Shown: one piece after another, positions 49,992 through 64,000 of the stretch
How the letters are laid out: each line of letters begins with the position of its first letter
Position numbering within the stretch: the first letter of the stretch is position 1
Assembly (NCBI RefSeq): GCF_038397775.1
Contig: NZ_CP151650.1
Location: forward strand, 3,410,001-3,474,000
Direction: 5' to 3'
From: Pseudomonas sp. RC10
GTDB lineage: Bacteria; Pseudomonadota; Gammaproteobacteria; Pseudomonadales; Pseudomonadaceae
Length of the DNA: 64,000 bases
Program-made: the position numbers and the translations under genes
Notes under the pieces: model-generated
Seen by the model: only the letters and a program-made list of their open reading frames with translations
Database searches by the model: none
Told to the model about the DNA's origin: nothing

Positions 49992-50035
49992 CGGCCTTGA
50001 AACCTCGAACGTTCATCGGACAGTTTCGGCACGAT

Positions 50036-50078
50036 TTGCATCTGTAGACGCAATAGGTATAAATTGGCGTCTACAGAT
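50036..50078 (+). promoter_or_regulatory. Promoter with perfect palindromic operator of the toxin-antitoxin pair
   Basis: ATCTGTAGACGC (50040-50051) and GCGTCTACAGAT (50067-50078) are perfect 12-bp inverted repeats. They bracket a -10 box TATAAA (50058), with a -35 TTGCAT (50036) at 16-bp spacing. The site is ideal for antitoxin autorepression. Confidence 0.9.
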
Positions 50079-50093
50079 CAAGAGGGCACTGTG

Positions 50094-50498
50094 ATGACTG
50101 TGGCGCTGCAACAACCGCAACTTTCCCGATCTCAAGGCGTGGTGGGCCTGCGCACGGCTTTGCGGATTCTCGACAAATGGAAGGCCTCCGGCGATCAGGC
50201 CTGTCGCATGCTGCGCATTTCCCGCAGCACCTACACCCGAGCCCGGCAGGACGACGCTGATTGGTCGGTGGCGCTGGACCTCGACCAGATGCAGCGCATC
50301 AGTTTCGTGCTGAACATTCACGCCGCGCTGCGCACCCTCTTCGACAACCCGGACAACGTCTACGGCTTTCCGTCCATGGACAACGATAACGCGTTCTTCA
50401 ACGGCCGCAAGCCACTGGACGTGATGGCTCAGGGCGACATGATTTCCCTCTACGAAACCTTCCGCCGGATCGACGCCCTGCGGGGCGCCCAATGGTGA
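50094..50498 (+). CDS. Antitoxin, Xre/MbcA/ParS (DUF2384) family
   Basis: The protein has 134 residues from ATG 50094 with AGAGGG upstream. An N-terminal helix-turn-helix is built around LRILDKWKASGDQACRMLRISRSTYTRAR. The C-terminal DUF2384 domain carries RISFVLNIHAALRTLFDNP, KPLDVMAQGDMISL and DALRG. It neutralises the RES toxin encoded next and represses the shared promoter. The toxin gene overlaps it by 7 bp. Confidence 0.93.
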   Translation: MTVALQQPQLSRSQGVVGLRTALRILDKWKASGDQACRMLRISRSTYTRARQDDADWSVALDLDQMQRISFVLNIHAALRTLFDNPDNVYGFPSMDNDNAFFNGRKPLDVMAQGDMISLYETFRRIDALRGAQW

Positions 50499-51184
50499 AT
50501 CCGGACGACTTGCCTGTTCTGCCGGATGAAAAACGGCTCGCCCACCGACTGGTCAACTCTAAATACCCGCCCATCGACCTGTTCAACGACGTGGCCGATG
50601 CGGAGGAGTTCGATACCCTGTTTCAGTTCCAGGCCATGACCAATCCCCGGCTGTTGAATGAGGTCGGCAGACTGGAGCTGATTCCCCGTCAGGACATCCC
50701 CTTCGGCATTCCCGGCTGCTCCTACGCCACCGCGCCGTTCACCCACGTCAATGCCGACGGTTCGCGCTTCAGCGCGGGTGAGTTTGGGGTGTTGTATCTG
50801 GCAGACACTGTCGAAACCGCCGTCGCAGAAGTGCGGCATCACCAGCAGCAGTATTGGTCCCGAGTCAGCCAGCTCAACTACGAGCGTTTCGTATTCCGCA
50901 GCCTGTCCTGCCGTTTTCGGGAAGTCGGCAGCGTCGATGCCACCGTGCTTGCGTCGTCACATCCCATTTACGCCCCCGACGATTACAGCGCGTCTCGTGC
51001 CTTGGGTGCGGCCCTCAAACACAAGGGCGTGGCAGGGCTGCGTTATCACTCGGTGCGCTCGCCGGGCAATGTGTGTTGGGGGCTGCTCACGCCTCGGCAT
51101 GTGGCCTCGATCCACCAAAGCGCGCATTACGAAATGATCTGGAACGGTCGGATTACCAGCGTGAGTCGCTTGTCCGGGGCGTGA
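50492..51184 (+). CDS. RES-domain toxin (NAD-depleting)
   Basis: The protein has 230 residues. The RES domain is evident: R/E-rich pocket with PFTHVNADGSRFSAGEFGVLYLADTVETAVAEVRHH and a distal SVRSPGNVCWGLL (the serine of the R-E-S triad). RES toxins such as MbcT, Xre-RES and Res-type enzymes degrade NAD+. It is translationally coupled to the antitoxin gene. Confidence 0.93.
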   Translation: MVNPDDLPVLPDEKRLAHRLVNSKYPPIDLFNDVADAEEFDTLFQFQAMTNPRLLNEVGRLELIPRQDIPFGIPGCSYATAPFTHVNADGSRFSAGEFGVLYLADTVETAVAEVRHHQQQYWSRVSQLNYERFVFRSLSCRFREVGSVDATVLASSHPIYAPDDYSASRALGAALKHKGVAGLRYHSVRSPGNVCWGLLTPRHVASIHQSAHYEMIWNGRITSVSRLSGA

Positions 51185-51212
51185 ACGAGCCACTGGCATG
51201 ATCGCTGCTAGG

Positions 51213-51237
51213 AATTAAAGAGCTAATCAATTAATTT
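51213..51237. promoter_or_regulatory. AT-rich operator-like element upstream of TetR gene (site 1)
   Basis: Its reverse complement contains TTAATTGATTAGCT, which resembles the elements at 52169 and 54273. It lies ~75 bp before the TetR start, in an otherwise GC-rich area. Confidence 0.55.
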
Positions 51238-51312
51238 GTGGGCTCAGGTTTTCAGAGGCTTCAATGGGCCTCTCCCGACATCAAATTCGGCCGCTCAAGG
51301 TAACCCGCACCC

Positions 51313-52014
51313 ATGCAGACAATCATTGGCCGTCGTGGCAAGGCCGCTTCTCCCGAAGGGAAGGTCAAGACCAGCAGAAAAGGGCCAGGACGCCCCGAAG
51401 GCGCTAGCAATCTGCGCGATGTGATTCTGGACGCCGCCGAGGAGCTGTTCGCCAACCTGGGCTACGCCGGCACCACCATGCGCGAAGTGTCCCAACACGC
51501 CAACGTCACCCAGGCGTTGATCAGCTATTACTTCGGTTCCAAATACGGCCTGTTCGAAGAAGTGTTCCTGCGACGCGGCAGCGCGATCTCCGATGAGCGC
51601 CTGAAAAACCTCGACACGCTACAAGCCCAGGGCCAGGTACCGGGGGCGCGGGCGATTGTCGAGGCGTTCCTGTTGCCGACCGTAGTGTTGAGGACTTCCG
51701 TCCAGGGGCGCCATTTCCTTCGTTTACAGGCGCGCCTTCACACTGAGCCGCCTAATATTTCCTACGCGTTGCGGGACAAAGCCTATGGCACGTCCACGCA
51801 ACGTTACGTTGATGCCTTGAAAGACGCCGTGCCGGGGTTGAGCGATCTGGACGCCAACTGGCGCATCACCTTGATGGTGGGCACCTACTTATATGCGTTC
51901 TCCGACAGCCATCGCATGGAAGAGCGGCTGCCGGACGGGCAATACAACCCCGAAGACTGGCAATCGCTGATTCAGCAGGTCACCAGTTTCGTGGTGGGCG
52001 GGATGTCGGCGTAA
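51313..52014 (+). CDS. TetR-family regulator of the pyridine-type catabolic island
   Basis: The protein has 233 residues. A basic, Pro/Gly-rich N-terminal tail (KTSRKGPGRPEGASN) precedes the helix-turn-helix (TTMREVSQHANVTQALISYYF). The C-terminal ligand domain is of unknown specificity. Position, orientation and the repeated operator elements suggest it controls its own gene and the three transcription units downstream. Confidence 0.88.
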   Translation: MQTIIGRRGKAASPEGKVKTSRKGPGRPEGASNLRDVILDAAEELFANLGYAGTTMREVSQHANVTQALISYYFGSKYGLFEEVFLRRGSAISDERLKNLDTLQAQGQVPGARAIVEAFLLPTVVLRTSVQGRHFLRLQARLHTEPPNISYALRDKAYGTSTQRYVDALKDAVPGLSDLDANWRITLMVGTYLYAFSDSHRMEERLPDGQYNPEDWQSLIQQVTSFVVGGMSA

Positions 52015-52168
52015 CGGGTAACACGTGGGTAAAACGGCACCAGATTGGGGAGCGGCTCCCCAAACGGGTGCGAGACGTAACGGCGACGAATCGACGGCTT
52101 AAATAGAAAATCCATAAAAATCAGTTGGTTGTCGCATTTTTTTGCAATTGGCACAGCTTCTGCTATCT

Positions 52169-52197
52169 ATTAATTAAAAGGTTGATTAATTAATTAC
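52169..52197. promoter_or_regulatory. Operator-like element upstream of Rieske gene (site 2)
   Basis: TTAATTAAAAGGTTGATTAA with a further AATTA follows the pattern TTAATTAA-NN-GGTTGAT-N-AATTA shared with site 3. It lies 42 bp before the start codon of the oxygenase gene. Confidence 0.75.
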
Positions 52198-52238
52198 AGC
52201 TTTTGAGTGGTTACACCCAGAAAAGCAAAGGAGTCGTG

Positions 52239-53297
52239 ATGAACCTGATTGCCGTTTCCTCTCATCAACCGGTCACCGCCGCAGACGGGTGCCAGGACCC
52301 GGTCCTGCTCAATGACTGGCACGTCGTGGGCTACAGCACCGATTTTGTCGAAGGCACGATCTATCCCGTGCGCTTGCTGGAGCGCGAGCTGATTGTCTGG
52401 CGCAGCGCCGACAACCAGATTCACGTCTGGGAAGACCTGTGCATCCACCGTGGCGCGCGTCTGTCCAAAGGCTGGATCAAGAACGACTCCGTGGTATGCC
52501 CGTACCACGGCTGGGAATACAACGGCAGCGGCGCCTGCACCTTGATGCCTGCCGCGCCGGACGAAAAACCGATGAAGAAAGCCCGCGCCTTTCCGTACCC
52601 GGCGGTGGAGCGTTACGGTTTTGTCTGGACCTGTCTGGGCGAACCCGCTTCGGACATTCCGGTGTTCCCGGAGTGGGACAACGACGTGTTCATGAAGGTG
52701 CACAGCGGCCCGTACCCTTACGCCGCCAACGGTTTCCGTGCGGTAGAGAACTTCATCGACGCGTCGCACTTTCCGTTCGTGCACGCCGGCCTCAATGGCG
52801 TGATGGACAAACCCGATCGTCTGGAGCCGTACACCGTGGAGGAGGTCGACACCGGCCTGCGTTCTTCCGAAGTGCGTGTGTTCCAGCCATGGGGCGATGC
52901 GCGGGGCAAGCCGCTGGTGGCGTTCTACACCTACCACGCGTTCCGTCCGCTGGTGGGTTACTTCTCCAAACGCACCCAGGACTCCGACGCCGAAGGCAAT
53001 GTCATCAGCGATAAGTCCGACACCTTCGCGACACTGTTCACCGTGCAGCCGCTGGATGCGGTGAATTGCATCGTGCGGGTGTGCGCCGCCATGGACGTCA
53101 ACCCGCGACCGGATGCCGACGCCGTGCGCGCCCGCGCCGACGTGGTGTTTGGCCAGGACCGCGACATCGTCGAAACCCAGCGTCCGGAGCGCATCCCCAC
53201 CGAGCTGCGTTACGAACTGCACCACCGCACCGACCTCATGGGCCAGCGCTACCGCACCTGGTTGCGCAACAAGGGCATCCAATATGGCGTTATCTGA
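52239..53297 (+). CDS. Rieske non-haem iron oxygenase, VanA-like (terminal oxygenase)
   Basis: The protein has 352 residues from ATG 52239, with AAAGGAG upstream. The Rieske [2Fe-2S] site is C68-x-H70 ... C87-x2-H90. The mononuclear iron site is D174-x2-H177-x4-H182 (ENFIDASHFPFVHAG), with a C-terminal FGQDRDIVETQRPERIP typical of VanA-type oxygenases. Family members perform O- or N-demethylation and hydroxylation of aromatic acids. Here it would act on a pyridine compound. The reductase gene starts 14 bp before its stop codon. Confidence 0.93.
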   Translation: MNLIAVSSHQPVTAADGCQDPVLLNDWHVVGYSTDFVEGTIYPVRLLERELIVWRSADNQIHVWEDLCIHRGARLSKGWIKNDSVVCPYHGWEYNGSGACTLMPAAPDEKPMKKARAFPYPAVERYGFVWTCLGEPASDIPVFPEWDNDVFMKVHSGPYPYAANGFRAVENFIDASHFPFVHAGLNGVMDKPDRLEPYTVEEVDTGLRSSEVRVFQPWGDARGKPLVAFYTYHAFRPLVGYFSKRTQDSDAEGNVISDKSDTFATLFTVQPLDAVNCIVRVCAAMDVNPRPDADAVRARADVVFGQDRDIVETQRPERIPTELRYELHHRTDLMGQRYRTWLRNKGIQYGVI

Positions 53298-54243
53298 CGG
53301 CTTGTTGAGCGTGCGTCTGCGCGCCATCGAATACGGCGCGCCGGGCATCAACCTTTACACCTTCGAATCCCTCGACGGGCAACCGCTGCCGCCGTACGAG
53401 CCGGGTGCTCACGTGGACGTGGCGATGGCCCCGGACCTGCTGCGCCAGTATTCCTTGCTGTGGCCGGCAACCGAGCCAAGCCAGTACCGGATCGCGGTGC
53501 AACTGGCTGAGGTGGGGAAGGGCGGTTCGCGCAAGCTGCATTTCGAATCGGTGGTGGGCGCGACGTACGAGGTGTCGGCGCCGCGCAATCACTTCCCGCT
53601 GATGCCCAGCGACGAAGCGTTTCACCTGTTTGCGGGCGGCATCGGCATCACGCCGATCATCTCGATGTACCGGCAGTTAAAGGCCAGCGGGCGCACGGTG
53701 TTTCTGTATTACTGGGCGGCCAGCGCGCAGCACATGCTGTTCCATGAAGCGTTGTGTCACGAGAGGGACGGCGTGCAGCTGTTTCACACCCGTTGCGGCG
53801 GGGCTGCGCCACCTCGGCTGAAGGACGTGATCGCGACCTTGCCCCAGAGCGCCCAGCTGTATTGCTGCGGGCCGCAGGGCATGGTCGACGAGTTTGACCA
53901 ACTGACGCTGGACCGACCGGAAGCCAACACCCATCGCGAGCGTTTCAGCGCGACGACGGATGCGCTGCAACCCGGCGACAGTTTCCGGGTACGCCTGCAA
54001 CGCTCGGGGCTGACGCTGACCGTACCCGCCGAGCTGAGCCTGTTGCAGGTTTGCGAAGCGGCCGGGGTGGATGTGGCGTACTCCTGCGAAGAAGGGGTGT
54101 GCGGCGCCTGTGAAGTCAAGGTGCTTGGCGGACACGTTGAACACCGCGACACGGTGCTGACCCCCAAGCAGCGGGAGCGCAGCGCAAGCATGATGATTTG
54201 CTGCTCGCGCGGCGTTGGCGACAGCCTGGTACTTGACCTGTAG
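53284..54243 (+). CDS. Phthalate-dioxygenase-reductase-type electron transfer protein (VanB-like)
   Basis: The protein has 319 residues. Order: flavin domain (RQYSLL near residue 54), NADH domain (GGIGITPIISMYRQL, CCGPQGM), and a C-terminal plant-type [2Fe-2S] domain with four Cys (CEEGVCGAC and a distal ICC). It passes electrons from NADH to the Rieske oxygenase, whose gene it overlaps. Confidence 0.94.
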   Translation: MALSDGLLSVRLRAIEYGAPGINLYTFESLDGQPLPPYEPGAHVDVAMAPDLLRQYSLLWPATEPSQYRIAVQLAEVGKGGSRKLHFESVVGATYEVSAPRNHFPLMPSDEAFHLFAGGIGITPIISMYRQLKASGRTVFLYYWAASAQHMLFHEALCHERDGVQLFHTRCGGAAPPRLKDVIATLPQSAQLYCCGPQGMVDEFDQLTLDRPEANTHRERFSATTDALQPGDSFRVRLQRSGLTLTVPAELSLLQVCEAAGVDVAYSCEEGVCGACEVKVLGGHVEHRDTVLTPKQRERSASMMICCSRGVGDSLVLDL

Positions 54244-54272
54244 CGCTGGAATGCCCGGCGATTTTTTCGCCG

Positions 54273-54299
54273 GTTAATTAATTGGTTGATCAATTATTA
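54273..54299. promoter_or_regulatory. Operator-like element upstream of the flavin monooxygenase operon (site 3)
   Basis: TTAATTAATTGGTTGATCAA with ATTATTA following matches site 2 at most positions. AATTG and CAATT form an inverted repeat. It lies 46 bp before the GTG start of the next gene. Confidence 0.78.
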
Positions 54300-54344
54300 C
54301 AAGAGGCCAGCGCGAAACACCCTCGCGCTGCAGGAGGAACACCC

Positions 54345-55580
54345 GTGGACAGAGCATTGCGAGTCGGCATCATCGGCGCCGGTATCGGCGGCGTCACCTT
54401 GGCCCGAGCCCTCGAACAGCGTGGCATCGAAGCGCGGATTTTCGAGCGCGCGCCGATGTTTGGCGAAGTCGGCGCGGGCGTGCAGATGACCCCCAACGCG
54501 GTCAAGGTGCTGAGTGAACTGGGGCTGGACAATCAACTGAAAACGATCGGTTTTCTGCCCGACGCGATGGTCGGCCGCAACTGGAAAACCGCCCGCGAAC
54601 TGTTTCGCACGCCGCTTAAAGAATCCTGCCCGGCGCTGTACGGCGCGCCGTTCTATCACGTGCACCGGGCCGATCTTCATGCCGCGCTGGCGAGCGACAT
54701 CAAGCCGGGGCAAGCCACCTTCGGCGCCCACTGTGTCGGTTTGCAGCAACTGGGTAACACCGCTGTGGCGAAATTCGCCGACGGGTTGGAGTTCGAGGCG
54801 GACTTGATCGTCGGCGCCGATGGCGTGCGTTCGGTGATTCGCGAGCAGTTGTGGGGCGAAGAGGCCGCGAACTACACCGGCCACATGTGCTGGCGCGCGC
54901 TGGTCAACGTCGATAAACACCCGCTGCCGTTTGTCAGCCCGGATTCCAGCTTCTGGATGGGGCCCAAAGGCCACGTCGTGACGTACTACGTGAAAGGCGG
55001 GTCGATGGTGAACATCGTCGCCGTGAACGAAAACCCGTCGTGGGTCGAGGAATCGTGGAACGCCAAGAGCACGCAGCAGGAATTGCTCGCCGGGTTCGAA
55101 GGCTGGCACCCGAACTTGATCGAGCTGTTCAAGCGCACCGACCCCGACGCGATCTTCAAATGGGGCCTGTTCGACCGCGATCCGATAAAGACCTGGTCCA
55201 AGGGCAACGCCACGCTGTTGGGCGACGCCGCGCACCCGATGCTGCCGTTTCTGTCCCAAGGCGCGGCGATGGCCATCGAAGACGGTTACGTGCTGGCCCA
55301 GTCCCTGGCGTATCACGGCCCGCGCCAATTGCAGCAGGCCCTGCGCGCCTACGAACTGGAACGCCTGCCGCGCACCAGTCGGGTTCAACTGGAAGCACGG
55401 GAGCGCGGGCGCACCTATCACTTGCCGTCGGCGTGGTCGCAGCTCAAGCGCGACATGGCCTACCGCTGGCGTCAGTTGCTTAACCCGAATGCCGTGGGGA
55501 TTCAGGCCAACTGGGTCTACGAATACGACGCCCGGGACTGCGAAACCCGTTTCCCACTGGCGCAGAAAATCCCCGCCTGA
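54345..55580 (+). CDS. FAD-dependent aromatic monooxygenase (NicC/HpaM-like)
   Basis: The protein has 411 residues from GTG 54345, chosen for the CAGGAGGAAC site directly before it. Flavin motifs: GxGxxG in IIGAGIGG, DG in IVGADGVRSV, and GD in LLGDAAHPMLPFLSQGAAMA. The last motif marks the salicylate-hydroxylase / 6-hydroxynicotinate 3-monooxygenase group. Such enzymes perform decarboxylative hydroxylation of pyridine carboxylates to 2,5-dihydroxypyridine. The downstream genes encode exactly the enzymes that use this product, so a NicC-type (6-hydroxynicotinate) or HpaM-type (5-hydroxypicolinate) reaction is likely. The choice cannot be made by eye. Confidence 0.9.
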   Translation: MDRALRVGIIGAGIGGVTLARALEQRGIEARIFERAPMFGEVGAGVQMTPNAVKVLSELGLDNQLKTIGFLPDAMVGRNWKTARELFRTPLKESCPALYGAPFYHVHRADLHAALASDIKPGQATFGAHCVGLQQLGNTAVAKFADGLEFEADLIVGADGVRSVIREQLWGEEAANYTGHMCWRALVNVDKHPLPFVSPDSSFWMGPKGHVVTYYVKGGSMVNIVAVNENPSWVEESWNAKSTQQELLAGFEGWHPNLIELFKRTDPDAIFKWGLFDRDPIKTWSKGNATLLGDAAHPMLPFLSQGAAMAIEDGYVLAQSLAYHGPRQLQQALRAYELERLPRTSRVQLEARERGRTYHLPSAWSQLKRDMAYRWRQLLNPNAVGIQANWVYEYDARDCETRFPLAQKIPA

Positions 55581-55640
55581 TTGCAGTCGCGCAGCCAACG
55601 ATTGCAGATCGGACAGAACGATAACGGAAGGGGTCATGCC

Positions 55641-56492
55641 ATGAGTCATCTTCGCTACGGCGGCCACGTGCACGCCAACGGGATTCGCCAGCATTATTTG
55701 CGTTACGGGCCGCCGGAGGGTGCAGCCGAGGGGCTGGACCCGGTGATCATCGTGCCGGGCATCACCAGCCCGGCGGTCACCTGGGGCTTTGTCGCCGAAC
55801 GCTTCGCCAGCCGCTTCGACACGTATGTGCTGGACGTGCGTGGGCGCGGGCTTTCGGAATCCGGTGACGCGCTGGATTACAGCCTCGACGCCCAAGCGGC
55901 GGATCTGGTCGCGTTCGCCGACGCGCTGGGCTTCAAGCGTTACAGCGTGGTCGGTCACTCGATGGGTGCGCGAATCGCCTTGAGGGCCAAGGCGTCCGGC
56001 GCCGATGGCATGACCCGGATGGTGCTGGTGGACCCGCCTGTTTCCGGGCCGGGGCGTCGGCCTTATCCGGCACAGCTGCCGTGGTACATCGATTCAATTC
56101 GCCAGGCCAAGGTCGGCATGAGCGCCGCCGACATGCGCGCCTTTTGCCCCACCTGGACCGAGGCTCAATTGGCCTTGCGTGCTCAGTGGCTGCACACCTG
56201 TGACGAGCGGGCGATCCTCGCCAGTTTCAATGGCTTTCACAAAGACGCGGTGGTGGAAAATATCGCCGCCATTGATTGCCCGGCGTTGCTGGTCACGGCG
56301 GCGCGGGGTGAGGTGGTCAAGGACGAGGACGTCGCCGAATGCCAGGCGCTGTTGCCAACGCTGGCCCATGTGCGCGTCGCCGATGCCGGTCACATGATTC
56401 CCTGGGACAACGAGGAAGGTTTCTACGCCGCGCTGGGGGATTTTCTTGGCGCGGCATTGAGCGAGGAGGGCGCACGTCATGGCCGTCAGTGA
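55641..56492 (+). CDS. nicD: N-formylmaleamate deformylase, NicD-like alpha/beta hydrolase
   Basis: The protein has 283 residues from ATG 55641 with GGAAGGGG upstream. The nucleophile elbow is GHSMGAR with S107. The oxyanion part IVPGITSPAVTWGF and late catalytic His in DAGHMIPWDN are present. Its position directly before nicX, with a 14-bp overlap, and the NicD-like VPGITSP motif point to hydrolysis of N-formylmaleamate to maleamate and formate. Function is inferred mainly from context. Confidence 0.85.
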   Translation: MSHLRYGGHVHANGIRQHYLRYGPPEGAAEGLDPVIIVPGITSPAVTWGFVAERFASRFDTYVLDVRGRGLSESGDALDYSLDAQAADLVAFADALGFKRYSVVGHSMGARIALRAKASGADGMTRMVLVDPPVSGPGRRPYPAQLPWYIDSIRQAKVGMSAADMRAFCPTWTEAQLALRAQWLHTCDERAILASFNGFHKDAVVENIAAIDCPALLVTAARGEVVKDEDVAECQALLPTLAHVRVADAGHMIPWDNEEGFYAALGDFLGAALSEEGARHGRQ

Positions 56493-57522
56493 TTTCACCA
56501 TGATCGAGGCCTGGACCCAGGTGTTGCGCCTCTCGAAGTTGCAAGCGGGCCAGGCCGTGACGATCCTCACGGGCGCCGACACCCACCCGCAAACCTTGCG
56601 CACCGCACAGATCGCCTGCCAGTCGCTGGGCGCGGTGATCAGCCGTCTCGACCTGGCCCCGGTCAATGGCGAACGCTCCCTAAGCCGCGACCCGCTGGCC
56701 TATCTCGGCACCACGCCGTTGACCGGCAACAAGCCAGCGATGGCCGCCCTGAAAGCCAGCGACCTGGTGCTGGACCTGATGACGTTGCTGTTCTCTCCCG
56801 AGCAGCACGACATTCTCGCTGGCGGCACGAAGATCCTGCTGGCGGTCGAGCCGCCGGAAATTCTTGCGCGCATGGTGCCGACCGAAGCGGATCGCACGCG
56901 GGTCATGGCCGCTGCGGCAAAGATCAAGCAGGCCAGCCGGATGACCGTCACGTCGCCTGCCGGAACGTCACTGTCCTGTCCGCTGGGCGAGTTTCCGGCG
57001 ATCAGCGAATACGGCTTCGTCGATGCACCGGGGCGCTGGGATCACTGGCCGAGCGGCTTCGTGCTGACCTGGCCCAATGAATTGCAGGCCAGCGGCACCA
57101 TCGTCATCGACCGGGGCGACATCCTCTTGCCGCACAAAAGTTATGTGCAGAACCCCATCGTGCTGACCGTCGAGGCTGGCTACGCCACGGGCATCGAAGG
57201 CGGCGTCGACGCGGCATTGCTGCGCGATTACATGGAAAGCTTCGCCGACCCGGAGGCCTACGCCATTTCTCACATCGGCTGGGGGCTGCAACCCCGGGCG
57301 CGCTGGTCAACGCTGGGGCTGCTGGATCGCGAGGCGCACATCGGCATGGACGCGCGGGCGTATGAAGGCAATTTCCTGTTTTCACTCGGGCCGAACAACG
57401 AAGCGGGCGGGTCGCGGACGACGGCGTGTCACATCGACATTCCCCTGCGCGGCTGCACGGTTTCACTGGATGACCGGGTGGTGGTCGAGGCAGGCAAGGT
57501 GATCAACGAGGAGCCGCTGTGA
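56479..57522 (+). CDS. nicX: 2,5-dihydroxypyridine 5,6-dioxygenase, NicX family
   Basis: The protein has 347 residues. The iron-binding H-x52-H-x-D motif that defines this family is intact: H265 (AISHIGWG), H318 and D320 (ACHID). These numbers agree with the ligands I recall for P. putida NicX. It opens 2,5-dihydroxypyridine to N-formylmaleamate. The gene overlaps nicD upstream and nicF downstream (TGATG), so translation is coupled. Confidence 0.93.
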   Translation: MAVSDFTMIEAWTQVLRLSKLQAGQAVTILTGADTHPQTLRTAQIACQSLGAVISRLDLAPVNGERSLSRDPLAYLGTTPLTGNKPAMAALKASDLVLDLMTLLFSPEQHDILAGGTKILLAVEPPEILARMVPTEADRTRVMAAAAKIKQASRMTVTSPAGTSLSCPLGEFPAISEYGFVDAPGRWDHWPSGFVLTWPNELQASGTIVIDRGDILLPHKSYVQNPIVLTVEAGYATGIEGGVDAALLRDYMESFADPEAYAISHIGWGLQPRARWSTLGLLDREAHIGMDARAYEGNFLFSLGPNNEAGGSRTTACHIDIPLRGCTVSLDDRVVVEAGKVINEEPL

Positions 57523-58145
57523 TGAGCAACGATCTAGAAAGCTACCAACGTCAGGGCTTCGGTGCCGATATGGCATTGCCCGCGCCTTACGCGTTGCTGA
57601 TCGTCGATCTGGTGGAAGGCTTTGCCGACCCCGAGATTTTTGGCGGCGGCAACATCCCCCAGGCCATCGCGCAGACCGAACAGTTGCTGGCCCACGCACG
57701 GGCACAGGACTGGCCGGTTGCCCATTCGCGGATCGTCTTCGCCGACGACGGGGCGGACGCCAACGTGTTCTCGCTCAAAGTGCCGTCGATGCTGACGCTG
57801 ACCGAACACGCACCCCGCAGCGCCATTGTGGCGCAGCTGACCCCCGTGGCAGGCGAGTTGGTGGTGCGCAAAACCCTGCCGTCGGCATTCTTCGGCACCG
57901 ATCTCGCCGCATGGCTGACGTTCAGGGGCGTGCGCACGCTGTTGGTGGCCGGCGCGGTCACCAGTGGGTGCGTGCGGGCGAGTGTGCTCGACGCGCTGAA
58001 CCACGGATTCCGGCCCCTGGTGGTCAGTGATTGCGTGGGCGATCGGGCCATCGGGCCCCATGACGCCAACCTGTTCGACCTGGCGCAGAAGTACGCCGTG
58101 GTCAAGCCGATGACCGAAGCGCTGGCGCTGCTGGACGACGCCTGA
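57522..58145 (+). CDS. nicF: Maleamate amidohydrolase, NicF-like (isochorismatase fold)
   Basis: The protein has 207 residues from ATG 57522. The cysteine-hydrolase triad is D29 (IVDLVEGF), K117 (VRKTLPSAFFGT) and C150 (AVTSGCVRAS), the same numbering as I recall for characterised NicF. It converts maleamate to maleate and ammonia. A maleate isomerase gene (nicE), needed to reach fumarate, is not found in the window. Confidence 0.92.
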   Translation: MSNDLESYQRQGFGADMALPAPYALLIVDLVEGFADPEIFGGGNIPQAIAQTEQLLAHARAQDWPVAHSRIVFADDGADANVFSLKVPSMLTLTEHAPRSAIVAQLTPVAGELVVRKTLPSAFFGTDLAAWLTFRGVRTLLVAGAVTSGCVRASVLDALNHGFRPLVVSDCVGDRAIGPHDANLFDLAQKYAVVKPMTEALALLDDA

Positions 58146-58179
58146 CCCTACAACAAGCCAATCTGGCACACGCGTTGCT

Positions 58180-58204
58180 ATTTAATTAACTGCCCGTTTA
58201 ATAA
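58180..58204. promoter_or_regulatory. AT-rich operator-like element upstream of ABC transporter (site 4)
   Basis: TTTAATTAACTGCCCGTTTA with AATAAC is a weaker relative of sites 1-3, sharing the TTAATTAA core. It lies 67 bp before the binding-protein start. Confidence 0.5.
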
Positions 58205-58271
58205 CGGTGGTCCGAGCCTGGAACGCCCTAATGCTGTGCAAGCCTTTCACCTGATCAGCTTGGAGAACACC

Positions 58272-59492
58272 ATGAACATGCGTGCACGTTTCACAAAATC
58301 GAACCTGTTGGCGGGCGTGATCGCCTTGATCGTCAGCGGCGCCGCCTGGTCGGCGGACACCATCAAGATCGGCGACATCAACAGCTACAAATCCCAGCCA
58401 GTGTTCACCGATGGCTACAAGAAGGGCATGGAACTGGCCGTTGAACAGATCAACGCGGCAGGGGGTGTCAACGGCAAGAAACTGGAGCTGATCACCCGCG
58501 ACGACAATGCCAACCCTGGCGACGCGATCCGTCAGGCCGAAGACCTGATCAACCGCGAGCATGTCGATGTGCTGGCCGGTGCGTTCTACGCCCACATCGG
58601 CACCGCGCTGTCGGACTACGCCAAGCAGAAAAAACGTTTCGTGCTGATCACCGAAGCCCTCAGCGACAACATCGTCTGGAGCGCGGGCAACCGCTACACG
58701 TATCGCCTCGACGCCTCGACTTACATGCTGACCTCGGCGCTGGTGGACGAAGCCGTCAAGCTGCACAAGAAACGCTGGGCGCTGGTGTACCCCAACTACG
58801 AGTTCGGCACTGCGGCCGCCAGCGCGTTCAAGACCTTGCTCAAGGCGCGTCAACCCGATGTGGAATTCGTGACCGAGCAGGCCCCGCCGTTCGGTAAAGT
58901 CGATGCGGGCAGCGTGGTGCAGGCGCTGGTGGACTCGAAACCGGATGCGCTGTTCAACGCATTGTTCGGGGCTGACCTGGCGAAGTTCATTCGCGAAGGC
59001 ACCACCCGCAGCTTCTTTGGCGAGCAACTGCCGGTGCTGAGCATCATCACCGGTCAGCCGGAATACCTGGAACCGTTGAAGGACGAGATTCCGCCGAACT
59101 GGACCGTCACGGGTTACCCCTGGTACAGCATCGACACCCCGGCGCACAAAGCCTTCGTTGCGGCGTATCACGCCAAATACGGCACCGAGAACCTGCGCTT
59201 CGGCTCGGACATCGGCTATTCGGCGATCCAGTCCATCGCGGCCGGGATCAAGGCGGCGGGCGGCAAGACGGACTCCGAGTCGTTGGTCGATGCGTTCAGC
59301 GGCCTGAAGGTCAACACCCCGGACGGCCCGCTGGAATACCGCAAGATCGACCACCAGGCGACCTGGGGTCTGTACGTCGGCAAGCTGGCGGTGAAGGACG
59401 GTGCGGGCGTGATGGTGGATTACACCTTCAAGCCGGGCGACACCCTGCTGCCTTCCGATGATGACGTGCGTAAGTTGCGTCCGGCCGAGTGA
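58272..59492 (+). CDS. ABC transporter substrate-binding protein (branched-chain/aromatic type)
   Basis: The protein has 406 residues. A signal peptide ends at AWSA. The Peripla_BP_6 fold is clear: IKIGDINSYKSQPVFTDGYKKGMELAVEQINAAGGVNGK, DAIRQAEDLI and VLAGAFYAHIGTALSDYA. Such proteins capture amino acids, urea, or aromatic acids in the periplasm. Being placed directly after the catabolic genes, it probably binds the pathway's starting compound. Confidence 0.9.
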   Translation: MNMRARFTKSNLLAGVIALIVSGAAWSADTIKIGDINSYKSQPVFTDGYKKGMELAVEQINAAGGVNGKKLELITRDDNANPGDAIRQAEDLINREHVDVLAGAFYAHIGTALSDYAKQKKRFVLITEALSDNIVWSAGNRYTYRLDASTYMLTSALVDEAVKLHKKRWALVYPNYEFGTAAASAFKTLLKARQPDVEFVTEQAPPFGKVDAGSVVQALVDSKPDALFNALFGADLAKFIREGTTRSFFGEQLPVLSIITGQPEYLEPLKDEIPPNWTVTGYPWYSIDTPAHKAFVAAYHAKYGTENLRFGSDIGYSAIQSIAAGIKAAGGKTDSESLVDAFSGLKVNTPDGPLEYRKIDHQATWGLYVGKLAVKDGAGVMVDYTFKPGDTLLPSDDDVRKLRPAE

Positions 59493-59540
59493 TGTGCAGC
59501 GGTAGTGAATACACCGTGTAGTGCTATTTGAAATGCGATT

Positions 59541-59632
59541 TTGTGAGAGTCGGCTTGCTGGCGAAAACGTTGGGTCAGTGAAAAGTGAAATAACTGACCC
59601 ACCGCATTCGCCAGCAAGCCGGCTCCCACAGG
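59541..59632. repeat. REPIN (family D) between binding protein and permease genes
   Basis: GAGTCGGCTTGCTGGCGAA near 59547 and TTCGCCAGCAAGCCGGCTC near 59607 face each other with ~40 bp between the arms. It lies inside the transporter operon and may set differential expression of the binding protein. Confidence 0.88.
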
Positions 59633-59704
59633 TCCTGTGCTGGCAGCGGGAACCTACGCCTGATCGCGGATGAGGTGACCGCGCTGCCCCAGATCGAGGG
59701 CGTC

Positions 59705-61651
59705 ATGGACTTTTCAGCGTTATTTTCACAGTTACTCAACGGCCTGGCCGAAGCGTCGTCGCTGTTTCTGGTGGCGGCGGGGCTGTCACTGATTTTTGGC
59801 GTGACCCGCATCGTCAACTTCGCCCACGGCTCGTTCTACATGCTCGGGTTGTACATCGCCTATTCCATCGTCGAATACCTCATGGGGTCGATGGGTGCGG
59901 CCGGGTTCTGGCTTGGTTTGGCGCTGGCGGCGATTTCCGTGGGCCTGATTGGCGCCGTGGTGGAAATCGTTCTGCTGCGCCGCATCTACAAGGCGCCGGA
60001 ACTGTTCCAGTTATTGGCCACATTCGCCCTGGTGCTGGTCATCAACGACGCGGTGCTCGGCTATTGGGGCGCGGAAGAACTGCTCGGTCGTCGTGCACCG
60101 GGGTTGTCCGGCTCCATCGACATTCTGGGGCGTCAGTTCCCCACCTATAACTTTTTCCTGATCGCCATCGGGCCGATTGTGCTGGGTCTGGTGTGGCTGT
60201 TGCTGGTGCGCACGCGGTGGGGCGTGCTGGTTCGCGCGGCGACTCAGGACCGGGAAATGCTCGGCGCCCTCGGCGTCAATCAGGCGTGGCTGTTCACGAG
60301 TGTCTTCGCCTTGGGCGCGATGCTGGCGGGGCTCGGCGGCGCGGTGCAGTTGCCCCGGGAACCGGCCAGCCTTTCCCTCGATTTGCGCACCATCGGCGAG
60401 GCCTTCGTCATCGTGGTGGTGGGCGGCATGGGGTCGTTGCCGGGGGCTTATGTCGCGGCCCTGCTCATCGCCGAAATCAAGGCGCTGTGCATCGGCTTGG
60501 GGTCGGTCACCCTGTTCGGCATCAGCGTGTCGTTTTCCAAGCTCACGTTGGTGATCGAGTTTCTTGTCATGGCCGTGGTGCTGGTGATCCGGCCGTGGGG
60601 CCTGATGGGCAAACCACAAGCCACCAGCCGCAATTCGGCGCCGGTGGAAGCCCCGATGCGACCGGGTTCGACCTCGTTCAAATGGCTGGTCGGTGTGGGG
60701 TTGCTGGTATTGGCCGTGCTACCGCTGCTTTCGACCTGGCTGCCCTATGCCAGCGTGCTGACTCAAGACGTGTTGGTGACCGTGCTGTTCGCCGTCAGCC
60801 TGCACTTCATCATGGGCCCCGGTGGCATGCACTCGTTCGGCCATGCCGCGTACTTCGGGCTGGGAGCGTACGGCGCCGCGATTCTGTTCAAGGTGCTGAC
60901 GATGCCCATGCCGATGGCCTTTGCTTTCGCGCCGCTGGTGGCGGGGTTGGGCGCGTTCGTCTTCGGCTGGTTCTGCGTGCGCTTGTCGGGGGTGTACCTG
61001 GCGATGCTGACGCTGGCGTTCTCGCAGATCGTCTGGTCGGTGGTGTTCCAGTGGGAGGACGTCACCGGCGGCTCCAACGGCATCACCGGCATCTGGCCGT
61101 CGGCTTGGCTCGACGGCACGCGCTATTACTACCTGACGCTGATTCTGGTGGCAGTGAGTATTTTTCTGGTCAGACGCATCCTGTTCGCGCCGTTCGGCTA
61201 CAGCCTGCGGGCGGCGCGGGATTCAGCCTTGCGCGCCGACGCCATCGGCATCGACGTCAAACGCGTGCAATGGCTGGCGTTCGTCATCGCCGGGGTGTTC
61301 GCCGGGCTGGCGGGCACGCTGTACATCTTTTCCAAGGGCAGCATCTCGCCGGACGCCATGGCGGTCGGCAAGTCCGTGGACGGGCTGGTGATGGTCCTGC
61401 TCGGCGGCATTCAGAACCTGCTGGGGCCGGTGGTCGGCGCCAGTGTTTTCAGTGTCTTGCAGGACTCGATCATGCGCGCCACCGACTACTGGCGGGCGGT
61501 GTTCGGCGGCGTGATCCTGCTGCTGGTACTGGTCTTTCCGCAGGGCATCGCCGGGTTCTTTCAACAAGTGGGCGGGTGGTGGCACGCGTGGCGATCTCGG
61601 TCGCCTGCGCATGAGGCAAGCGTTACCACGGTGATGGAGAAACAGGCATGA
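59705..61651 (+). CDS. Fused ABC permease (LivH-LivM type)
   Basis: The protein has 648 residues from ATG 59705. The first ~290 residues are a LivH-type permease (GLSLIFGVTRIVNFAHGSFYMLGLY, EAFVIVVVGGMGSLPGAY). After a linker, residues ~330-640 are a LivM type (HSFGHAAYFGLGAYGAA, LRAARDSALRADAIGIDVKRVQWLAFVI). Two separate genes are more common; the fusion is known in some aromatic-compound importers. It probably moves the captured pyridine substrate across the inner membrane. Confidence 0.93.
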   Translation: MDFSALFSQLLNGLAEASSLFLVAAGLSLIFGVTRIVNFAHGSFYMLGLYIAYSIVEYLMGSMGAAGFWLGLALAAISVGLIGAVVEIVLLRRIYKAPELFQLLATFALVLVINDAVLGYWGAEELLGRRAPGLSGSIDILGRQFPTYNFFLIAIGPIVLGLVWLLLVRTRWGVLVRAATQDREMLGALGVNQAWLFTSVFALGAMLAGLGGAVQLPREPASLSLDLRTIGEAFVIVVVGGMGSLPGAYVAALLIAEIKALCIGLGSVTLFGISVSFSKLTLVIEFLVMAVVLVIRPWGLMGKPQATSRNSAPVEAPMRPGSTSFKWLVGVGLLVLAVLPLLSTWLPYASVLTQDVLVTVLFAVSLHFIMGPGGMHSFGHAAYFGLGAYGAAILFKVLTMPMPMAFAFAPLVAGLGAFVFGWFCVRLSGVYLAMLTLAFSQIVWSVVFQWEDVTGGSNGITGIWPSAWLDGTRYYYLTLILVAVSIFLVRRILFAPFGYSLRAARDSALRADAIGIDVKRVQWLAFVIAGVFAGLAGTLYIFSKGSISPDAMAVGKSVDGLVMVLLGGIQNLLGPVVGASVFSVLQDSIMRATDYWRAVFGGVILLLVLVFPQGIAGFFQQVGGWWHAWRSRSPAHEASVTTVMEKQA

Positions 61652-62430
61652 CCCTTCTGCAAGTACGTGACTTGAACAAGTCCTTCGGCGGCGTCCGTGC
61701 CGTCGACGGCATCAACTTCGACCTGCACGAAGGCGAGCTGCTGGCGCTGATCGGCCCCAACGGCGCAGGCAAATCCACCACCTTCAACATGGTCGGCGGC
61801 CAGCTCAAGGCCTCGGGCGGTTCGATCCGTCTGCTGGGGCAGGAACTGGTAGGCAAACGCCCGCGCGACATCTGCCGCATGCAGGTGGGCCGCACCTTCC
61901 AGATCGCCGAAACCTTCGCCTCGCTGACCGTGGTGGAGAACGTGCAGATGGCGTTGCTTTCCCATCACGGCAAAGGCTTTTCGCTGTTCACCTCGGCGCG
62001 CAAACAGTACCGCGAAGAGGCCATGGACTTGCTCGCCCAAGTCGGCATGCAACGCCACGCCGAGCGCCCGTGCAGCGAACTCGCGTACGGCGACGTCAAG
62101 CGGGTGGAACTGGCAATGGGGCTGGCGAACGACCCGAAACTGTTGCTGATGGACGAGCCCACGGCGGGCATGGGGCCGGAAGAACGCAACGACCTGATGG
62201 CGCTGACCAAGCGGCTGGTGGTGGAGCGCAAGATGGCCGTGCTCTTCACTGAGCACAGCATGGACGTGGTCTTCGCCTACGCCGACCGGATGATCGTCCT
62301 GGCCCGTGGGCGTTTGATTGCCGAAGGCGACGCGCAGTACATCCGCAATCACCCGAAGGTGCAGGAAGTGTATTTCGGCACCGGCAAGACGTTCGAAAAC
62401 GAAATCGCTCAGTCGCAGGTGCAGGTATGA
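61648..62430 (+). CDS. ABC transporter ATP-binding protein (LivG type)
   Basis: The protein has 260 residues. Walker A is GPNGAGKSTT, and Walker B is LLLMDEPTAGMGPEE. The signature reads CSELAYGDVKRVELAM, the usual LivG variant. Gene starts overlap neighbours by 4 bp on both sides. It powers the importer with LivF. Confidence 0.95.
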   Translation: MTLLQVRDLNKSFGGVRAVDGINFDLHEGELLALIGPNGAGKSTTFNMVGGQLKASGGSIRLLGQELVGKRPRDICRMQVGRTFQIAETFASLTVVENVQMALLSHHGKGFSLFTSARKQYREEAMDLLAQVGMQRHAERPCSELAYGDVKRVELAMGLANDPKLLLMDEPTAGMGPEERNDLMALTKRLVVERKMAVLFTEHSMDVVFAYADRMIVLARGRLIAEGDAQYIRNHPKVQEVYFGTGKTFENEIAQSQVQV

Positions 62431-63197
62431 ACGCAGTGCTGTCCACGCAACGCCCGGAGGCCGCTTCGGTGGGTGAATCGCTTCTGGAAGTCACCGGCCT
62501 CAACGCTTGGTATGGGGCCGCTCAGGTGCTGTACGACCTGAATCTCAACGTCAAACGCGGCGAAGTCGTGACCTTGATGGGCCGCAATGGCGCAGGCAAG
62601 TCCACCACGTTCAAGGCGTTGATGGGCATGCTGGCGCGGCGTCAGGGTGGCATTCACTTCATGGGGCAGGACATCTCGGCCCTGGCGCCGTTTGAGCGGG
62701 CGCGACTGGGGCTTGGGTTCGTCCCTGAAGACCGGCGCGTGTTCACTCACCTGACCGTGACCGAGAACCTGGAAGTGGGGCGTCAGGCCAACCGGCATTG
62801 GCCAGACGGCACCGAGGCGCTGAACTGGACGCCGCAACAACTGTTCGAGTTCTTCCCCAACCTTGGCGCCATGCAAGACCGGCCGGGCGGGCAGATGAGT
62901 GGCGGCGAACAGCAGATGCTGACCGTGGCGCGCACGCTGATGGGCAATCCGTTCCTGATCTTGCTGGATGAGCCGTCAGAAGGGGTCGCGCCGGTGATTG
63001 TCGAGCAGATGGCACACATGATCCTGGCGTTGAAAGCCAAGGGCGCGAGCATTCTGTTGTCCGAGCAAAATTTGCACTTTGCCGGACTCGTATCAGACCG
63101 CGCCTACGTGCTGGAAAAGGGGCTGGTGCGCTATGAGGGCAGCATGTCGGAACTGGCGGCGAACGAGGCGGTGCGCAAGGCCTACCTGACGATGTAG
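62427..63197 (+). CDS. ABC transporter ATP-binding protein (LivF type)
   Basis: The protein has 256 residues. Walker A is GRNGAGKSTT, the signature MSGGEQQML and Walker B ILLDEPSEGVAP. It is the last gene of the transporter operon. No clear terminator is visible in the 63 bp that follow. Confidence 0.95.
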   Translation: MNAVLSTQRPEAASVGESLLEVTGLNAWYGAAQVLYDLNLNVKRGEVVTLMGRNGAGKSTTFKALMGMLARRQGGIHFMGQDISALAPFERARLGLGFVPEDRRVFTHLTVTENLEVGRQANRHWPDGTEALNWTPQQLFEFFPNLGAMQDRPGGQMSGGEQQMLTVARTLMGNPFLILLDEPSEGVAPVIVEQMAHMILALKAKGASILLSEQNLHFAGLVSDRAYVLEKGLVRYEGSMSELAANEAVRKAYLTM

Positions 63198-63260
63198 CCG
63201 GGGAGCGGGGCAGGCGGCCGTGATATTCTCGCGGCTTGTCTGTCCTGTCTGTGGTTTCCC

Positions 63261-63566
63261 ATGAAATACATCCATCAGCGCGAGCACCTCAATGAAGGTG
63301 ACATCGTGGTCATCGAGTCGTCGGGCGTGTGCAACATCCGCCTCATGAGCGACGCCAACTTTCGCAGCTTCAAGAACGGCGGTCGGCACACCTACCACGG
63401 CGGCGCGTTCGACCGCTTTCCGGCGAAAATCATCGTGCCGAGCAGCGGGTTCTGGAACATCACACTGGACACCGTGACCAAACGGGCAATCAGCGTCACG
63501 CGCAAGCCCAACATCAAGCATTCGATCAAGATCGTCAGGCGGTCCGGGGGCGGGTTGCCTCGGTAA
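63261..63566 (+). CDS. DUF1883-family protein
   Basis: The protein has 101 residues. It carries the DUF1883 signature KYIHQREHLNEGDIVVIESS, VCNIRLMSDANF and GRHTYHGGAF. Members are small beta-rich proteins of unknown function. They are often found in Pseudomonas genomes as single genes. No functional link to the transporter genes is evident. Confidence 0.9.
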   Translation: MKYIHQREHLNEGDIVVIESSGVCNIRLMSDANFRSFKNGGRHTYHGGAFDRFPAKIIVPSSGFWNITLDTVTKRAISVTRKPNIKHSIKIVRRSGGGLPR

Positions 63567-63576
63567 GCGTTGTCTT

Positions 63577-63814
63577 CCACAAGGGTGGTGGCGCGGCAAT
63601 GTCTACGGTCCGACGCTGTCCCTGTGGGAGCTGCCGGAGCTGTGCGACGGCCGCGAAAGCGGTGTATCAGGCAACACATCTTCCACTGACCCACCGCTGT
63701 CGCTGCCGTCGTACCTCCGGCGTCTCCCACAAGGGTGGTGGCGCGGCAATGTCTACGGTCCGACGCTGTCCTTGTGGGAGCTGCCGGAGCTGTGCGACGG
63801 CCGCGAAAGCGGTG
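63577..63814. repeat. Tandemly duplicated REP element
   Basis: An 88-bp segment (63577-63664) recurs 150 bp later (63727-63814) with one visible mismatch. Each copy contains CTGCCGGAGCTGTGCGACGG, and an inverted REP arm lies between them near 63695-63730. The 281-bp interval between the DUF1883 gene and the next gene is filled by this array. Confidence 0.92.
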
Positions 63815-63847
63815 GGTCAGACGCAGATGTGTTGTTTGACACACCCA

Positions 63848-64000
63848 CTATTTGGCAATGAACTGCTCACTCACATACGCCGAATAATCCGGCAGCACGC
63901 TTTCAATCTTCCCCTGATCCTTCAAAAACTCCGCCGTCTTGGCAATCGCGGTCACCGTGCCGCCACCCAGCAATTCCGGCGATTTCTGTTCTGCCGCCGT
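63848..64000 (-). CDS. TauA-like sulfonate ABC substrate-binding protein, C-terminus only
   Basis: Minus-strand translation from the right edge gives ~50 residues ending in a TAG at 63848. The tail includes KSPELLGGGTVTAI, AKTAEFLKDQGKI and VLPDYSAYVSEQFIAK. This resembles the C-terminus of taurine or aliphatic-sulfonate binding proteins. Only the end is visible, so the assignment is tentative. Confidence 0.65.
   Translation of the reverse strand, partial: TAAEQKSPELLGGGTVTAIAKTAEFLKDQGKIESVLPDYSAYVSEQFIAK

Follow-up and report, generated by a model that had tools for sequence, protein, structure and literature searches.

What does a ring-cleavage pathway for 2,5-dihydroxypyridine degrade when its genes are preceded by those of a Rieske oxygenase instead of a molybdenum hydroxylase? 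The question is raised by a catabolic island of Pseudomonas sp. RC10 (G000; genome of 6.71 Mb, a single contig), located at 51313-63197 on the forward strand of the window, i.e., the whole stretch of 64,000 nucleotides that was analysed (G000:C1:3410001-3474000). Its genes encode, in this order, a TetR-family regulator, a Rieske oxygenase, a reductase, a flavin monooxygenase (FMO), NicD-, NicX- and NicF-like enzymes and four components of an ATP-binding cassette (ABC) importer (Table 1), with overlaps between the Rieske oxygenase and reductase genes, among the NicD-, NicX- and NicF-like genes, and between the permease gene and those of the two ATPases. An earlier sequence-only reading had located these genes and set the Rieske pair ahead of a lower Nic pathway (cleavage of 2,5-dihydroxypyridine); the genes are where it put them, and the arrangement is borne out by shared operator-like sites and by conserved linkage. 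The island is fairly probably a TetR-controlled catabolic regulon for import of a pyridine compound, its oxidation by the Rieske oxygenase and the FMO, and degradation by the NicX-, NicD- and NicF-like enzymes to maleate.

When GTDB genomes were scanned for the Rieske protein, 18 loci were found, from which two non-orthologues (L049, 55%, and L051) were left out and 16 (74-100%) kept as orthologues: Pseudomonas (eight loci), Bradyrhizobium and relatives (four), Acetobacter conturbans, Paraburkholderia, Burkholderia and Arboricoccus pini. The Rieske gene is adjoined by the FMO gene in all 16 and by the reductase gene in 15; a TetR gene of the island's family accompanies it in 14, the binding-protein gene in 12, and NicX, within the fetched stretch, in 11. 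NicX was found in 17 of the 17 genomes with this Rieske-FMO core that were searched (E ≤ 0.001, best match per genome 35-100% identity). In the genus sample, NicX is present in 82 of 398 genomes and a Rieske protein at least 85% like the island's in 6 of 398; all 6 of these core genomes carry NicX (Fisher 6.6e-5, kinship not corrected), against only 3 of 9 whose Rieske protein is more distant (45-57%). The genomes of L035, L037, L039 and L041 occur in both the GTDB scan and the genus sample. Recurrence of the gene set elsewhere was upheld by this co-occurrence analysis: the set is found in other bacterial classes, more often than by chance. Four Pseudomonas cores lack NicD-NicX-NicF genes of their own (P. 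bohemica L037, Pseudomonas sp. dw_358 L040, P. typographi L041 and G023), and all four genomes have a nic cluster with NicC, NicD, NicX and NicF, which in G023 (L085) adjoins the core on its upstream side and in dw_358 (L040, L087) lies some kilobases off on the same contig, as would be expected if the product of the Rieske and FMO reactions is 2,5-dihydroxypyridine.

The 19-bp operator-like site TTAAWNRGYTRATYAATTA, which precedes the tetR, Rieske and FMO genes, has only these three copies in the whole genome, even allowing one mismatch. The pattern was taken from the three sites in the window, which match by construction, so that only the lack of further copies in the genome and the retention of the sites in relatives count as evidence. 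Six of the eight Pseudomonas loci keep all three (L034-L039, one with a mismatch; L020 and L022 in this check are the same genomes as L035 and L039), and the alphaproteobacterium Arboricoccus (L048) has the Rieske site with one mismatch. A weak fourth site before the binding-protein gene is repeated in L034-L036, L038 and L039, and not in L037, L040 or L041. Because the same site stands before the tetR, Rieske and FMO genes and nowhere else, both oxygenases probably belong to one regulon. The closest solved structure to the island's TetR protein is NicR (5fgl/5fhp, best E 1.5e-29), and this regulator may act as a repressor through the three sites.

Table 1. Genes and operator-like sites of the Pseudomonas sp. 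RC10 island (window positions)
Feature	Position	Strand	Evidence
Operator-like site 1, upstream of tetR	51215..51233	+	TTAAWNRGYTRATYAATTA exact
TetR-family regulator	51313..52014	+	Pfam TetR_N + TetR_C_30
Operator-like site 2, upstream of Rieske gene	52174..52192	+	TTAAWNRGYTRATYAATTA
Rieske oxygenase, VanA_C type	52239..53297	+	Pfam Rieske + VanA_C, motifs, orthologues
VanB-type reductase (FAD/NAD + plant-type 2Fe-2S)	53284..54243	+	Fer2 domain, Cys motif
Operator-like site 3, upstream of FMO gene	54278..54296	+	TTAAWNRGYTRATYAATTA
Group A FMO, not NicC	54345..55580	+	Pfam FAD_binding_3, alignment, tree
NicD-like alpha/beta hydrolase (putative N-formylmaleamate deformylase)	55641..56492	+	Fold, GHSMG
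NicX-like 2,5-dihydroxypyridine 5,6-dioxygenase	56479..57522	+	7cn3 408 bits, ligands
NicF-like maleamate amidohydrolase, isochorismatase fold	57519..58145	+	3ot4 306 bits, triad
Weak fourth operator-like site, before binding-protein gene	58183..58201	-	3 mismatches
Liv-type substrate-binding protein	58269..59492	+	3i45 407 bits
Fused LivH-LivM-type permease	59705..61651	+	Two BPD_transp_2 stretches
LivG-like ATPase	61648..62430	+	
LivF-like ATPase	62427..63197	+	

The FMO also occurs without the Rieske pair. In the family of Paraburkholderia sp. C35, where up to six first-look candidates were scored per genome, it was detected (E ≤ 1e-120) in 14 of 299 genomes, 13 of them having genes for an isomerase-like protein, NicD, NicX and NicF next to it and one having none of these; the Rieske pair accompanies only 2 of those 13, which leaves 11 of the 14 with the isomerase-NicD-NicX-NicF set but no Rieske gene. 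Plasmids of Caballeronia (L098, the same stretch as L138 of the family sample, with identical proteins) and Azospirillum carry genes in the order FMO-isomerase-hydrolase-NicX-NicF with no Rieske gene, a Paracoccus yeei plasmid has a similar FMO cluster with a TetR gene after the FMO gene, and Pseudomonas G161 also has a Rieske-free FMO cluster. From these clusters it follows that the FMO product is probably 2,5-dihydroxypyridine, and that FMO-NicD-NicX-NicF is probably a pathway in its own right, to which the Rieske pair would be an upstream add-on extending it to an earlier compound. The Caballeronia, Azospirillum and Pseudomonas G161 clusters could be cited for direct use of an imported hydroxypyridine carboxylate by the FMO, with the Rieske pair serving an unrelated side substrate, which is rather improbable in view of the identical operator-like site before both genes, their linkage in 16 of 16 loci, and the placement of Rieske-linked FMOs in one clade (support 0.98) with a single Rieske-free member (L128, placement support 0.49). 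Next to this clade in the tree stand the FMOs of Caballeronia, Azospirillum and Paraburkholderia-family clusters that have no Rieske gene, with weak support for the branch order (0.23). Another possible reading, that the Rieske oxygenase and FMO degrade a benzenoid compound beside NicD-NicX-NicF genes that are there by chance, would suit the name 'salicylate hydroxylase' given to the FMO in some sources and the four Pseudomonas cores without these genes in their cluster; it is very improbable given the presence of NicX in every core genome searched and of NicD-NicX-NicF beside the FMO in 13 of the 14 FMO-positive Paraburkholderia-family genomes and on the Azospirillum and Paracoccus plasmids, and chance neighbourhood was rejected on these grounds and on that of the genus-sample association.

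Three Paraburkholderia-family loci (L047, L050 and L130) have, between the FMO and NicD genes, an Asp/Glu-racemase-like gene that is read as encoding a putative maleate isomerase; a Caballeronia relative of its product is annotated 'Asp/Glu racemase' (Pfam Amdase). The family of G405 is presumably Burkholderiaceae. Other gene combinations were also observed. In Acetobacter conturbans (L089, 780-12097), an FMO 59% like the island's occurs with NicX-NicF-NicD, and a three-gene molybdenum hydroxylase set lies nearby (Pfam); the same genome holds two NicC-type clusters and the Rieske core. Pseudomonas G331 and G208 (L125 and L127) have an isomerase-like gene followed by NicD, NicX (82%) and NicF, together with molybdenum-hydroxylase genes and with no match to the FMO or Rieske genes in the stretch; this set may mark a further route into 2,5-dihydroxypyridine.

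We infer from the gene content every reaction in RC10, and the order in which the Rieske oxygenase precedes the FMO. The ABC importer would bring in a pyridine compound, which the Rieske oxygenase and its reductase would convert to a hydroxypyridine carboxylate; the FMO would hydroxylate the carboxylated carbon para to the hydroxyl group, with loss of CO2, to yield 2,5-dihydroxypyridine; the NicX-like enzyme would open this ring to N-formylmaleamate, from which the NicD-like enzyme would release formate and the NicF-like enzyme ammonia, leaving maleate; and a maleate-isomerase-like protein encoded outside the island (G000:C1:816708) may convert maleate to fumarate.

The lower part of this pathway had been called strongly supported, and matches to solved structures agree. 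The sole PDB relative of the island's NicX at E ≤ 0.001 is the 2,5-dihydroxypyridine dioxygenase 7cn3, matched over residues 1-345 of 347. The label of 3ot4, the structure matched by NicF, is 'putative isochorismatase' in the database; we take this protein to be a maleamate amidohydrolase. NicF has the triad D29/K117/C150, numbered from the second Met of its open reading frame (ORF) and one residue higher in the 208-aa ORF, and the NicD-like protein is an alpha/beta hydrolase with the motif GHSMG. NicX keeps R293 and also H265, S302, H318 and D320 as iron ligands and E177 and H189 as substrate residues, these roles being as described in PMC7910607. Residue 105, a His in the studied enzyme, is Phe in the island's NicX, which is compatible with NicX activity because, according to that source, the H105F variant was active (H105A was inactive). 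F105 was also considered as a mark of another ring-cleavage substrate and rejected, since copies with F105 occur in NicC clusters (L088, L090-L093) and H105F is active.

Of the sequence-only reading's label for the FMO, NicC/HpaM-like, the NicC part was not upheld. Among solved structures the FMO is closest to tropone 2-monooxygenase TrlE and NicC, followed by an FAD-binding domain-containing protein and the decarboxylating hydroxylases of vanillate and 4-hydroxybenzoate; most of these hydroxylate at a carboxylated carbon, and ipso-hydroxylation with decarboxylation is described for TrlE in PMC11110157. In an alignment of 37 proteins, 11 are of the NicC type, each encoded beside NicX, NicD-like and NicF-like genes, and all 11 have KWW before a shared H..Y pair and PMKPHMAQ after it (GAGIH in 9 of 11). 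None of these signatures is found in the other 26, of which 24 have FW(M/L/F)G and PMLPFLSQ, the two remote ones (L107) being different. The island's FMO has GAGVQ, SSFWMG and PMLPFLSQ, and in a FastTree phylogeny NicC forms a distant group with which it does not cluster; it is clearly not NicC, as judged by these sequence comparisons. A literature search for the substrate of this FMO found nothing.

One-step decarboxylating hydroxylation gives 2,5-dihydroxypyridine from either 6-hydroxynicotinate or 5-hydroxypicolinate, both of which have the carboxyl group para to the hydroxyl group. We regard 5-hydroxypicolinate as slightly more likely than not to be the FMO substrate, another hydroxypyridine as a lesser possibility, and 6-hydroxynicotinate as unlikely. 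5-Hydroxypicolinate is favoured over 6-hydroxynicotinate because, among core genomes that are not of the Bradyrhizobium type, all 10 for which the other NicX loci were retrieved (three more were not) encode a separate NicC; four Bradyrhizobium-type genomes have no NicC at such loci. If the Rieske pair instead made 6-hydroxynicotinate for the FMO, the island would be a second nicotinate-type route. For this speak the rank of NicC as second-best solved relative of the FMO, the location of the core near a nic cluster in two Pseudomonas, and the conservation in both the FMO and NicC groups of the His and Tyr of the NicC/TrlE/3HB6H active site (as given in PMC11110157); the separate NicC genes and the lack of KWW, PMKPHMAQ and GAGIH in the island's FMO make it an improbable alternative.

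RC10 itself carries another nic cluster near 2.40 Mb (L082), encoding a major facilitator superfamily (MFS) transporter, NicF-, NicD-, NicC- and NicX-like proteins, a MarR regulator, a NicA-like 2Fe-2S protein and a NicB-like protein with molybdopterin and cytochrome c domains. The absence of NicAB noted by the sequence-only reading therefore holds for the island and not for the genome, and the notion of the island as the host's only pyridine pathway was rejected. The two clusters' copies are 53% (NicX), 60% (NicD) and 40% (NicF) alike, and no isomerase gene was found in the stretch of the second cluster. The host's nicB (L082 12276-15869, about 2.41 Mb) is split into two ORFs by an in-frame stop some 210 residues in, and its counterpart in G068, G085, G023 and G400 is one ORF of 1193-1279 aa. 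Nicotinate use through NicAB in RC10 is thus doubtful, or there is a sequencing error in nicB; with nicB interrupted, the strain could have a use for another source of 6-hydroxynicotinate.

The Rieske protein has the motifs C68-x-H70-x16-C87-x2-H90 and D174-x2-H177-x4-H182 (CxH..CxxH and DxxHxxxxH) and the two Pfam domains of the VanA type, and the reductase has a C-terminal 2Fe-2S Cys motif and a Fer2 domain. The Rieske step may, about equally likely, be ring hydroxylation (for example of picolinate at C5) or O- or N-demethylation. All of the nearest solved relatives are remote: SxtT and SxtDIOX, which are hydroxylases, then the N-demethylases NdmA and NdmB, and, further down, dicamba O-demethylase. 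A picolinate 5-hydroxylase, which would allow conversion of picolinate through 5-hydroxypicolinate to 2,5-dihydroxypyridine without a molybdenum enzyme, is proposed tentatively. The demethylation put forward in the sequence-only reading, in which a methoxy- or N-methyl-pyridine(one) carboxylate would lose its O- or N-methyl group as formaldehyde and become the FMO substrate, is likewise only a tentative possibility: the VanA_C domain, the VanB-type reductase and the rank of NdmA/NdmB directly after SxtT/SxtDIOX, with dicamba O-demethylase among the matches, are in its favour, and against it are the top rank of hydroxylases, the lack of a formaldehyde-handling gene among the island genes, and the fact that demethylases and hydroxylases of the Rieske family are not told apart by sequence. 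Nothing useful was found in a literature search on Rieske N-demethylation of pyridinium compounds and on homarine. The contexts of Rieske relatives at 55-64% do not separate demethylation from hydroxylation. Rhodococcus ruber plasmid pmega_2 (L103, 344-15483) has two Rieske/VanB pairs, one 61% like the island's, with genes for a cupin, two carbon-nitrogen hydrolases, a cyclase, CMD and an AllG-domain protein, and looks like another heterocycle catabolic cluster; in Pseudomonas L026, a distant Rieske gene lies beside those of an amidohydrolase, an amidase and AllG/AtzH-like proteins, an N-heterocycle-like context.

The dedicated ABC importer named in the sequence-only reading is present, with a Liv-type binding protein, a fused permease and two ATPases. 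Where present (12 of 16 loci), it seems to go with the Rieske step, because its binding protein and permease in Pseudomonas are 72-79% like those of the four Bradyrhizobium-type loci and only 27-33% like their Liv-type counterparts in two Rieske-free FMO clusters (L099 and L128). The ligand of the solved binding protein 3i45, presumably nicotinate, was given no weight; a literature search on 3i45 found nothing.

Several observations weigh against the proposed regulon and pathway. The importer is missing from 4 of the 16 Rieske loci and the TetR gene from 2: L043 and L048 are without importer and NicX in the stretch, and L047 and L050 without island-type TetR and importer. Pseudomonas sp. dw_358 (L040, 9995-12296) has no reductase gene, its FMO gene starting at the reductase's usual place, and the four Bradyrhizobium-type loci have a NicX only 41-49% alike, with no NicD or NicF homologue found in the stretch. 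Of the operator-like sites, L040 has the Rieske site only, L041 has sites with one and three mismatches and L042 sites with two and three; no site within three mismatches was found in L043-L047, L049 or L050. The FMO belongs to a large family (5919 of 8000 scored candidates at E ≤ 1e-60), some members of which have no NicX nearby (L100, 56%; L141, 50%; L107, 49% and 44%, these last adjoining AMP-binding and CoA-transferase genes), and Rieske relatives at 55-64% have different surroundings, in which neither FMO nor NicX was found over the stretches examined (L025-L027, L049, L102, L103). The choice of 5-hydroxypicolinate is an argument by exclusion, and the FMO and the Rieske oxygenase could act in parallel.

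Directly to the left of the island (50064-51184) lie Xre-like helix-turn-helix and RES-domain genes (Pfam), a toxin-antitoxin-like pair that is kept beside the island in four of the eight Pseudomonas loci (L034, L035, L037 and L039); just to the right (63572-63820) are two 99-nt direct repeats, 96% alike and 150 apart, and a 54-nt inverted repeat. Base composition was rejected as a sign of recent import, with 62.6% guanine plus cytosine in the island and 62.4% in the window. No Rfam element reached the gathering score in 50000-64000, and matches in sigma-70 and terminator scans were no better than those in shuffles.

Several routes of pyridine catabolism converge on 2,5-dihydroxypyridine, and to our knowledge they have so far reached it through molybdenum hydroxylases, diiron enzymes or FMOs. 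A full-text literature search, with most subscription papers outside its reach, found no Rieske route to this compound; tight grouping with an already described pathway of like layout, which would have refuted the sequence-only reading, was not encountered. A putative Rieske entry is present in Pseudomonas, Bradyrhizobium, Acetobacter, Arboricoccus and Burkholderiaceae, and most of the loci include a TetR and an importer of their own. This points to a pyridine nutrient important enough to merit a separate system in addition to the ordinary nicotinate genes, and whichever pyridine compound releases the TetR protein or is bound by the importer's binding protein is probably what the pathway starts from. 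If the Rieske pair is indeed a picolinate 5-hydroxylase, it would be a new kind of entry to the maleamate pathway, common to several classes of Proteobacteria.

Among known systems, the canonical nic pathway for nicotinate in Pseudomonas (NicAB-C-X-D-F) has its lower enzymes in common with the island, which differs from it in having a Rieske pair as the first step and no molybdenum enzyme NicAB in the cluster, a non-NicC FMO, TetR control, and an ABC importer instead of an MFS transporter. The 5-hydroxypicolinate (hpa) pathway of Pusillimonas and Alcaligenes, with HpaM, resembles the Rieske-free clusters in that one FMO is followed by cleavage of 2,5-dihydroxypyridine; compared with it (HpaM sequence not compared), the island adds a Rieske pair and an importer and is without an isomerase gene. 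HpoBCDF of Rhodococcus, a multi-component Rieske-type 2-hydroxypyridine dioxygenase with a different ring-cleavage intermediate, is like the island in the proposed action of a Rieske enzyme on a pyridine ring. A degrader of 5-hydroxypicolinic acid is mentioned in PMC6460240. VanAB and other Rieske/VanB pairs (NdmA, dicamba demethylase, SxtT; VanA was outside the sequences compared) share with the island the Rieske and VanA_C domains and an adjacent FAD/NAD/2Fe-2S reductase, and the island's pair differs from them in being linked to an FMO and to pyridine ring cleavage.

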